Positions 31,542 through 34,485 of a stretch of 51,261 nucleotides of DNA are shown here, piece by piece (within the stretch, counting starts at the first letter, position 1; each line of letters begins with the position of its first letter). The notes under the pieces are model-generated. The model saw only the letters and a program-made list of their open reading frames with translations. It was not told the origin of the DNA and did not search any database. The stretch comes from Candidatus Nitrosopelagicus sp. (GTDB lineage Archaea; Thermoproteota; Nitrososphaeria; Nitrososphaerales; Nitrosopumilaceae). The stretch covers positions 1 through 51,261 of the forward strand of contig JAOMDR010000008.1 in NCBI GenBank assembly GCA_028345575.1, in the 5' to 3' direction. The position numbers and the translations under genes are program-made.

Positions 31542-33290
31542 TTGAAGTTTGAAGATAAAGTTGTTTTAATCACAGGTAGTGGAACCGGCATAGGAATGAC
31601 GGTTGCTAAGAAGTTCATAGAAAATGGAGCAAGTGTCATTATTTTAGGTAGAAGAAAAGAACCCCTTGAAAGCACATCAGAAATGCTAACAAAAATCATT
31701 AATGAGAAAAATTCAAAAGGATTTGTAAAGATATTTTCAGGAGTTGATGTTAGTGATGAAAAATCAGTTTCAGATATGTTTGATTCATTGAAAAATGACG
31801 GAATTAATGTAGATGTGATAGTAAATAATGCCGGAGTTTCAGGACCGGTAACATGCTTTTCTCATGCATCACTAGACGATTTTAGAAGTACGGTTGATAT
31901 TCACCTAACAGGAACTTTTTGGACATCCGTACAAGCATTGAAAGTTATGAGAGAGGGAGGAAAAATCATTACAATCTCAACTTTCTTTGCGGAAGAAAGA
32001 CCATTGGAACAAAGACCATACAGATTCAGAGGTCCATATACAGCATCACAAGGTGCAAAGAATAGATTAGTTGAAGCAATGTCATGGGAGTTAACTGAAA
32101 AAGGAATCATATCCATTGGAACCAATCCAGGACCAGTTCATTCAGATAGAATTTACAAAACAGTTTATCCAAAAGCAGCATCAGAGTTTCTCAGAGTTAG
32201 TGGATTTGAAGATTTAGAACCTACTGAAGTGGAAGCTGCAAATAAAGAGCTTGTGGGATTACTTGGAGAAGATGAAAGTACAATTAAAAATGGAATTAAG
32301 GCTGCCGCAGAAAAATTAGGAAAACAAGAAGCCACATTCACGAATTTACTAAACAAAGTTCAAAGTATTGCAGAAAAAATTCAGAAAAATACATCGACAA
32401 TGATTGCAGATCAACAATTCTTATCACAAGATCAGGTCGCAACTACAGTTTTAACACTATCCGATGATGATCAAGCAAAAATTCTAAATGGAAAAATTAT
32501 TCCAGGTGACAGAGTGTTCTATCCAGTCAGATCACATATTACATCAGTTCCAGAAACGGTAAAACAACATGATTATTCATCAAAAATTGCAGTACTGACA
32601 ATTGATGCAACAGATGGAGAAGATGCAAAGAAGGCAGAAGAGGTTGCGACAAATGTTCAATCAAATGGAGGTCAAGCAATTTGTTTCATTTCAGACAAAT
32701 GCCCAAAAGAAATTCAGGATTCAATATCAAATAAATTCCATTCACATGTAATAGATTTTTCAAATAATGAAGAAGTTACAAGATGGTTTAACACAGCAAA
32801 ATCAAAAGGAGACATTGAAATATTTATTCACATAACCGGTAAAGTTCCATCAATTTCAAAATTAACAGAATTATCTAGAAGCGAATGGGATGGATTAACA
32901 GACAAATTCATCAACATTCCAGCTACTGTCAGTCAAAACGCAATGAGTGTTTTTGTTCCTAATGGCTCAGACGATCCAAGACTTTTCAAAGATGCAAAAG
33001 GACGTATCGTAATAATTGGTCCAGACCTACCACACGGTAAAAAAATAGGCGGAGGGGAAAGAGCAAAAGTAGAGGTATTCAGAGGAGCACTAAGACCATT
33101 TGCAACAACTGTAAACCAAGAACTAAGCGATGTATTGAAATCAAATGTCAGAGCATTCCTAGTATTAGCAGGAACAGTAGACGGAAAAGAGCCAAACAAT
33201 GCCAGAATTACAGACGCAGTGAATTATTTGATATCTGACGATTCAAGATCTAGCGCAGAAGTAATTTTCTGCCCTGATGAATCAAGATAA
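31542..33290 (+). CDS. Tandem short-chain dehydrogenase/reductase (SDR) protein
   Basis: 582 residues with two SDR-like domains. Domain 1 has the cofactor motif TGSGTGIG (11-18), R38 after the second strand (GRRKE, suggesting NADP), NNAG (95-98), S146 (ITISTFF) and Y166. The expected YxxxK lysine is Gln170 (YTASQ); a lysine stands at 173, giving Y-x6-K as in FabI. NPGPVHSDRI follows. Domain 2 (about 350-575) keeps the fold but lacks the glycine motif, so it is probably structural. The tandem layout recalls the reductase half of Chloroflexus malonyl-CoA reductase (from memory). Start is TTG. A hot-dog protein gene follows three bases later. Substrate unknown. Confidence 0.82.
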   Translation: MKFEDKVVLITGSGTGIGMTVAKKFIENGASVIILGRRKEPLESTSEMLTKIINEKNSKGFVKIFSGVDVSDEKSVSDMFDSLKNDGINVDVIVNNAGVSGPVTCFSHASLDDFRSTVDIHLTGTFWTSVQALKVMREGGKIITISTFFAEERPLEQRPYRFRGPYTASQGAKNRLVEAMSWELTEKGIISIGTNPGPVHSDRIYKTVYPKAASEFLRVSGFEDLEPTEVEAANKELVGLLGEDESTIKNGIKAAAEKLGKQEATFTNLLNKVQSIAEKIQKNTSTMIADQQFLSQDQVATTVLTLSDDDQAKILNGKIIPGDRVFYPVRSHITSVPETVKQHDYSSKIAVLTIDATDGEDAKKAEEVATNVQSNGGQAICFISDKCPKEIQDSISNKFHSHVIDFSNNEEVTRWFNTAKSKGDIEIFIHITGKVPSISKLTELSRSEWDGLTDKFINIPATVSQNAMSVFVPNGSDDPRLFKDAKGRIVIIGPDLPHGKKIGGGERAKVEVFRGALRPFATTVNQELSDVLKSNVRAFLVLAGTVDGKEPNNARITDAVNYLISDDSRSSAEVIFCPDESR

Positions 33291-33293
33291 AAA

Positions 33294-33755
33294 ATGGAAA
33301 AATTCAAATCATTAAAAGTAGGAAATGCTTTTGTTTCGACAACAAGTATTTCAAAAAAAGAATTAAACGAATACCTGGGATTTTCAAGAATAAAAAATGC
33401 AATGTTTGAGATAGACTCTGGAAAAGATGAGGACAGAGTGATTTCAGGAAGAGCAATTATTTCACGAATGGAAGGAGAATTTACAAGGTTGCGACAAATT
33501 TACGGAAATTATATTGTCCTATATGGAATTGATGGGGATACAGAATGGGAAAATAGACAAACCAGATTTGTAAGACCAGTTTACACAGATCAGGTTATAC
33601 GACTCAAATTTACAATTTCAGATAAAAAAGATATTGATGATGAGTATGGTTTGATTAGCGTAGATTTTGAAGCTACCTTTGAAGGTGGAGAATTAGTGTT
33701 AACATCAAAAAAAAATCTTTACAGGATTAAAAAAGACCCCCCAACGAATCGATAA
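33294..33755 (+). CDS. MaoC/hot-dog-fold protein paired with tandem SDR
   Basis: The 153 residues show the hot-dog pattern: a long helix region (MEGEFTRLRQIYGNYIVLYG), then FVRPVYTDQVIRLKFTISDK, GLISVDFEATFEGGELVLTS and LYRIKKD. This resembles MaoC-like dehydratases and thioesterases acting on CoA thioesters. The usual Asp/His active-site pair of R-hydratases is not evident, so catalysis is uncertain. Its place three bases after the SDR gene suggests they act on the same acyl-CoA or acyl chain. The end overlaps the convergent TauE gene by 29 bases. Confidence 0.7.
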   Translation: MEKFKSLKVGNAFVSTTSISKKELNEYLGFSRIKNAMFEIDSGKDEDRVISGRAIISRMEGEFTRLRQIYGNYIVLYGIDGDTEWENRQTRFVRPVYTDQVIRLKFTISDKKDIDDEYGLISVDFEATFEGGELVLTSKKNLYRIKKDPPTNR

Positions 33756-34485
33756 CCAATTTTGCTGCAGCAGCTAAAAGAACTAGTGTTATCAGAATTT
33801 TTAATTTTCTTTCTTTGATTTCTAAGGATAATCTAGCACCAAGTAAACCTCCTCCAAATGCACCAATTGCTAACAAAAATGCTTGTAAGTAATCCGGATG
33901 ACCTAATGCAGAATGTACCAAAAGACCGCTGAGAGATGCAAACATCAAAACAAGCTGTGCAGTAGGAGCTGCCTTTCTCATAGGAATGCCTATTCCAATA
34001 ACCATTAAAGGAACAAAAACAATCCCTCCACCAATTCCAAACAAGCTAGATATTATACCAGCAAAGAGACTTGCGCCTGCAGAAATTATCATCATTAATG
34101 CAGTTTTATTGTATGGCTTTTCATCGACCGCACGTTTTACAAAAATGTAAACTGCAGAAGCAATTAATACAAATGCAAATAAAATCTGAAACGCTACGGG
34201 AGTCACTACATCAGAAACAAATGCACCCAAAACAGTTCCAGGAATACACATTAACCCAAGTTTAATTCCAATTCCAAATTCAACACGTTTTTGGCGTGCA
34301 TATGACACAGTAGATGCTACAGAATTACTGAAAGCTGCAAAAAGACTGTTACTTGCAGCTAATGAAGGAGGGAATCCAGCAAAAGTCATTACAGGTACCG
34401 CAATTATTCCACCACCAAGTCCAACAATAGAGCCCAAAATACCAGCCGCAAATCCCAACGGAATTAACCATAGATTTTCATACAT
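33727..34485 (-). CDS. TauE/SafE-family membrane exporter
   Basis: 252 residues, about eight membrane helices in two inverted-repeat halves. Each half starts with a glycine motif: GSIVGLGGGIIAVPVMTFAG and SLFGIGGGIVFVPLMVIGIG. The family exports sulfite, sulfonates or organic anions, or moves other small anions; the substrate cannot be read from sequence. The opposite gene overlaps its 3' end by 29 bases, the longest convergent overlap in the window. Confidence 0.9.
   Translation of the reverse strand: MYENLWLIPLGFAAGILGSIVGLGGGIIAVPVMTFAGFPPSLAASNSLFAAFSNSVASTVSYARQKRVEFGIGIKLGLMCIPGTVLGAFVSDVVTPVAFQILFAFVLIASAVYIFVKRAVDEKPYNKTALMMIISAGASLFAGIISSLFGIGGGIVFVPLMVIGIGIPMRKAAPTAQLVLMFASLSGLLVHSALGHPDYLQAFLLAIGAFGGGLLGARLSLEIKERKLKILITLVLLAAAAKLVIDSLGGLF

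Follow-up and report, generated by a model that had tools for sequence, protein, structure and literature searches.

A tandem-SDR protein of ammonia-oxidizing archaea is a candidate for their unassigned malonyl-CoA reductase

A gene found in 122 of 122 AmoA-positive archaeal genomes, and in none of the archaea outside the ammonia-oxidizing families searched here, encodes a protein built like one half of bacterial malonyl-CoA reductase (MCR). This makes the protein a strong candidate for an enzyme whose gene has long been missing from the CO2-fixation cycle of ammonia-oxidizing archaea (AOA), although its enzymatic activity was not assayed. AOA fix much of the carbon of the dark ocean by a 3-hydroxypropionate/4-hydroxybutyrate cycle described as the most energy-efficient aerobic one known, yet in the papers examined the gene for its second step has not been assigned. 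The gene was identified in a window of 51,261 nucleotides from the marine AOA Candidatus Nitrosopelagicus sp. (GCA_028345575.1, contig JAOMDR010000008.1, positions 1 to 51,261), and near-identical loci belong to Candidatus Nitrosopelagicus.

The tandem-SDR gene and its hot-dog neighbor

To determine whether the gene organization proposed in a first-pass annotation was correct, the open reading frames, domains and predicted structures of both proteins were examined. The tandem-SDR gene occupies positions 31542-33290 on the forward strand, begins with TTG, ends with a stop codon at 33288-33290 and encodes 582 residues. After three bases (aaa), an ATG opens the second gene (33294-33755, forward strand), which encodes a 153-residue MaoC-like hot-dog protein. 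Pfam adh_short matched residues 6-202 only (1.5e-36), and no family was called over the second domain. An AlphaFold model (pLDDT 89.3, pTM 0.90) showed two Rossmann domains, formed by residues of about 1-205 plus 296-330 and by residues 345-582, joined by a helical insert that follows the PGP turn. The annotation had also described Gln170 at the position of the SDR lysine, Lys173 in Y-x6-K spacing and the loss of the cofactor motif from domain 2. The observation was confirmed in each of these respects.

The core of SDR domain 1 (residues 1-205; 31542-32156, forward strand) contains the cofactor motif TGSGTGIG (residues 11-18), the NADPH-type arginines R37/R38, D69 and NNAG (residues 95-98), all in invariant columns. 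Tyr166, Gln170 and Lys173 were identical in 95 of 95 aligned sequences, comprising the query and 94 ortholog loci; Gln170 and Lys173 are encoded within 32049-32060 (forward strand). The helical insert (residues 206-295; 32157-32426, forward strand) is intermediate in length between the lid helices of SDR1 and the extra domain of SDR3 of MCR. SDR domain 2 (residues 345-582; 32574-33287, forward strand) is degenerate, like SDR2 and SDR4 of MCR, and lacked a TGxxxGxG motif in every ortholog displayed. Several marine lineages (loci L049, L052, L054, L057-L059, L062, L065, L071 and L073 of the tandem-SDR gene set) carry a shorter protein, of about 540-547 residues in L049 and L065, from which part of domain 2 around residues 380-425 is deleted. 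Most of these loci also lack the hot-dog gene. One further locus (L078, JAESSC010000128.1), on a contig labelled as a Pelagibacteraceae MAG, carries the 3' end of an AOA tandem-SDR gene and is probably binning contamination.

To examine whether the two genes form an enzyme pair, as the annotation had proposed, the hot-dog protein was examined for catalytic residues and its linkage to the SDR gene was surveyed; absence of conserved linkage had been set out in advance as evidence against the pairing. The hot-dog protein was only weakly detectable by sequence (MaoC Pfam E 0.09; PDB 1q6w E 2e-4), but its model matched MaoC-like folds (4ffu, 1q6w and the R-hydratase 1iq6). The hydratase Asp was absent from all homologs and the His was absent in Nitrosopumilaceae. 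The gene lies directly behind the SDR gene in most Nitrosopumilaceae and is adjacent only in that family, is unlinked in some Nitrososphaeraceae-like genomes, and was not found in several AOA lineages that retain the SDR gene. Several of the unlinked Nitrososphaeraceae-like homologs (L099-L104) keep the His (LHENPE) but not the Asp of MaoC hydratases. A TauE/SafE-type permease gene (33727-34485, reverse strand), convergent with and slightly overlapping the hot-dog gene, is a more widely conserved neighbor, adjoining the tandem-SDR gene in four AOA families of the genome set (f1, f2, f3 and f5; 18 of 27 loci), for a reason that was not identified. A functional pair is therefore unlikely.

Relationship to bacterial malonyl-CoA reductase

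To identify the closest structural relatives, the AlphaFold model was used as a Foldseek query against the PDB. Comparison with Chloroflexus MCR and FabI had been named beforehand as a check, with a closest match to an unrelated SDR class counting against kinship with MCR. The first 24 matches, over the whole length of the protein, were all N-terminal halves, C-terminal halves or full-length forms of MCR (E 2.8e-24 to 1.2e-18; TM-score by query length 0.66-0.76; alignments of 626-695 columns). The next architecture, peroxisomal multifunctional enzyme type 2 (MFE-2; 2et6), had a TM-score of 0.58 with an rmsd of 17.5 Å, and single SDRs, which cover one domain only, reached only about 0.38. No FabI structure was among the top 50 matches. 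Thus, FabI kinship is limited to the lysine spacing.

Consistent with the fold search, a profile of 26 orthologs ranked full-length MCRs first (1.8e-45, against 8.9e-27 for the next match). This ranking is helped by the presence of two matching SDR domains in MCR, as single-domain scores for SDR3 (84 bits) did not exceed those of ordinary SDRs (91 bits for 4iuy). Profile alignment with the C-terminal half of Chloroflexus MCR was colinear through the insert and second domain (query residues 4-467), but domain 2 alone was not significant (hhalign probability 21% to SDR2 and 6% to SDR4), and only the fold search links it to SDR2/SDR4. The Chloroflexus sequence used was compared by phmmer with PDB 8hjw and was identical over the C half and, after removal of one extra residue, over the N half. 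A search of plasmids for other tandem relatives returned only single SDRs.

To examine the active site, the protein was compared with the residues described for Roseiflexus MCR (PMC10470521). In that enzyme, a YXXRXXY motif shared by SDR1 and SDR3 holds the malonate end (Tyr743-Arg746-Tyr749), Arg616 and Asp651 contact NADP, and Arg785 binds CoA. The AOA protein carries the motif as Y160-RF-R163-GP-Y166 (32019-32039, forward strand), Thr147 (31980-31982, forward strand) at the position of Ser731 in SDR3 and Thr165 in SDR1, R37 and D69 as the NADP-type residues, and Arg203 (32148-32150, forward strand) at the position of Arg785 of Roseiflexus and Arg773 of Chloroflexus MCR, R773A and R773Q variants of which were among the structures listed by the fold search. 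All were invariant in the AOA alignments (95 sequences in one and 26 in the other). In contrast, the motif was present in none of 26 archaeal and 9 plasmid-borne SDRs with a located active site. Thirteen residues separate T147 from Y160, against 12 in SDR3 and 7 in SDR1, so the loop is of the CoA-acylating type. The annotation had likened the protein to the N-terminal half of MCR, but this loop and the insert resemble SDR3, the half that converts malonyl-CoA to malonic semialdehyde, more than SDR1.

The catalytic lysine departs from MCR. Lys753, which is essential in Roseiflexus MCR, is replaced by the invariant Gln170; Lys173 is a possible substitute. This change is the main objection to a malonyl-CoA reductase function. 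The CoA-binding residues Arg799 and Arg1164 of MCR had no clear equivalents in a region that aligned poorly, and although invariant R218 and R518 lie nearby in sequence, the alignment does not indicate whether these contacts are conserved. The four-SDR chain of MCR is also absent, as the AOA protein corresponds to one half only.

To test for common ancestry of the catalytic domain, maximum-likelihood trees of domain 1 were constructed. The AOA proteins grouped with SDR1 and SDR3 of MCR with 98/90 support against 33 other SDRs. When residues 146-174, containing the motif loop, were removed and plasmid-borne SDRs were added, the same group retained 94/92 support. Long branches join the AOA and MCR groups, and the trees are therefore support rather than proof of common ancestry.

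Distribution and pathway context

To determine whether the gene tracks ammonia oxidation, 160 genomes of the class were searched. All 122 genomes with AmoA carried the gene. The four other carriers were genomes of AOA families in which AmoA was not found, two further AOA-family genomes lacked both genes, and none of the 32 genomes of non-AOA families carried it. Among 250 genomes of the phylum, only AOA families had the gene (45 genomes). Relatives in family f4 have 4-hydroxybutyryl-CoA dehydratase-type genes but not this one, so it does not simply track that enzyme. Many genes could, however, share the AOA-only profile.

The literature was examined for the status of this step. Enzyme activities of the whole cycle were measured in Nitrosopumilus extracts, but the MCR gene was listed as unidentified in 2015 (PMC4510362), 2018 (PMC6038301) and 2020 (PMC6964070). 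A 2025 proteome study lists Asd and GabD as putative candidates for cycle steps (PMC12542715), and a 2026 marker resource gives no MCR for the AOA variant of the cycle (PMC12894919). No paper naming the present protein was found, in a search that did not extend to subscription journals or preprints.

Competing candidates were sought by scanning the semialdehyde-dehydrogenase and iron-dependent alcohol dehydrogenase (Fe-ADH) families. Every AOA genome scanned had exactly two semialdehyde-dehydrogenase-family genes, as do many non-AOA relatives, so there is no extra copy like the Sulfolobales enzyme, which is a paralog in this family. Families f2 and f5 lacked an Fe-ADH match of the strength seen in other AOA, presumably the malonic semialdehyde reductase, yet retained the tandem-SDR gene; which enzyme performs that step in these families was not identified. 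Family f2 is probably Nitrosocaldaceae, since its main genus has the two adjacent 4-hydroxybutyryl-CoA dehydratase genes reported for Nitrosocaldus (PMC5797428).

The window also contains the only 3-hydroxyacyl-CoA dehydrogenase gene of the genome (21666-22826, forward strand), 9 kb upstream of the tandem-SDR gene. It was taken as the ortholog of the characterized cycle enzyme Nmar_1028 because each is single-copy (PMC8287830). The two genes lie within 20 kb in 19 of 32 AOA genomes, including one of family f2, but this is mostly inherited synteny and only weak support.

Candidate function and comparison with known systems

The simplest reading of these data is that the 582-residue protein is an NADPH-dependent, CoA-acylating malonyl-CoA reductase of the AOA cycle, resembling the C-terminal half of MCR. 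We consider this somewhat more likely than not. The analysis itself demonstrates the MCR-like arrangement of two SDR domains, the NADP-type cofactor site in domain 1, the invariant motif and CoA-binding Arg, and the distribution of the gene; substrate, cofactor use and mechanism are inference. In this view, NADPH would bind domain 1, R163 and Y160 would hold the malonyl carboxylate, T147 and Y166 would polarize the thioester carbonyl, and hydride transfer would release CoA and malonic semialdehyde, while domain 2 and the insert would form the CoA tunnel without chemistry of their own. Lys173, about one helical turn beyond the usual position, would orient the nicotinamide ribose as the Tyr-x6-Lys lysine does in FabI. 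Malonic semialdehyde would then pass to a separate reductase (Nmar_1110 type) where that exists, and the hot-dog protein would not be needed. The interpretation in the first-pass annotation was thus partly supported: kinship with Chloroflexus-type MCR and the link to the AOA cycle were upheld, but the assignment to the N-terminal half was corrected and the enzyme pair was not supported. If the protein is this enzyme, the pathway gap closes, the AOA cycle shares an enzyme family with the Chloroflexus bicycle rather than with Sulfolobales, and engineers gain a single-function malonyl-CoA reductase from mesophiles.

The two main alternatives are both considered unlikely. First, the protein may reduce succinyl-CoA, or both malonyl- and succinyl-CoA, to the semialdehyde. 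This is the other CoA-acylating reduction of the cycle, and its gene is also unassigned (PMC6038301, PMC4510362). The YXXRXXY motif would bind the carboxylate of a C4 dicarboxylate too, and in Sulfolobales one enzyme performs both reactions. However, all characterized relatives with this architecture and motif act on malonyl-CoA or malonic semialdehyde, and GabD has been proposed for a cycle step and behaves like cycle proteins (PMC12542715). Second, and almost as likely, the protein may be an AOA-specific oxidoreductase unrelated to the cycle, with Asd or another protein serving as the MCR. The abundance of Asd rises under carbon limitation like that of cycle enzymes in Nitrososphaera viennensis (PMC12542715), although its assignment to the malonyl-CoA step is our reading and the tandem-SDR protein was not examined in those data. 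The AOA-only profile fits other AOA traits equally well, and the catalytic Lys is changed. Against this, the MCR-specific motif and tandem architecture have no known other use, and Asd-type genes are equally present in many non-AOA relatives.

A more speculative and improbable extension, which the data do not exclude, is that a second lineage of MCR-type tandem SDRs with a relocated lysine serves as a broad dicarboxyl-CoA reductase in AOA, acting on malonyl- and succinyl-CoA, and in families lacking the iron-dependent malonic semialdehyde reductase carries malonyl-CoA all the way to 3-hydroxypropionate in one active site. It is doubtful that the protein is instead a malonic (or succinic) semialdehyde reductase, like SDR1-SDR2 of MCR, taking over that step in families such as f2 and f5. 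SDR1 shares the YXXRXXY motif, but the gene is equally present in AOA that have the Fe-ADH, the loop spacing fits SDR3, and R203 and the long insert fit CoA binding. A (3R)-hydroxyacyl-CoA dehydrogenase/hydratase pair like MFE-2 is very unlikely, given the different domain arrangement, the degenerate second domain, and the absence of catalytic residues from the hot-dog protein and of its gene from many AOA with the SDR gene. A FabI-like enoyl-CoA (acryloyl-CoA) reductase is equally improbable: acryloyl-CoA reductase was long unassigned in AOA (PMC6038301), but the Nitrosopumilus maritimus equivalent of Adh4 is reported to reduce acryloyl-CoA (PMC12542715), and the Arg-rich carboxylate motif would be unexplained.

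Among known systems, the Sulfolobales malonyl/succinyl-CoA reductase (Asd-like, K15017) would catalyze the same step of the same cycle but belongs to an unrelated fold family, the semialdehyde dehydrogenases. The FabI/InhA enoyl-ACP reductases share the Tyr-x6-Lys spacing but are single-domain enzymes without the carboxylate motif. The SDR part of MFE-2 (2et6) also has two tandem SDR domains, linked in that system to MaoC-type hydratase domains, but both of its SDR domains aligned to domain 1 of the AOA protein in the sequence search. The N-terminal half of MCR (SDR1-SDR2; PDB 8aew, 8hi6, 6k8v) has the same two-domain size and fold, gave the best Foldseek E-value, and shares YXXRXXY and Thr165, but has a shorter loop before the motif and a shorter lid, retains Lys182 and reduces malonic semialdehyde. 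The C-terminal half of MCR (SDR3-extra domain-SDR4; Chloroflexus Caur_2614, Roseiflexus Rcas_2929 and Porphyrobacter; PDB 8a8t, 8hi5, 6k8u) differs in forming part of a longer chain, in its longer extra domain, in Lys753 in place of Gln170 and Lys173, and in overall sequence, with about 15-17% identity in fold alignments; its Arg799 and Arg1164 have no clear equivalents in the poorly aligned region. It shares with the AOA protein an active SDR followed by a degenerate SDR, the YXXRXXY motif, a Ser/Thr before it with similar spacing, the Arg785/773 equivalent, the NADP-type Arg and Asp, and a full-length fold match.
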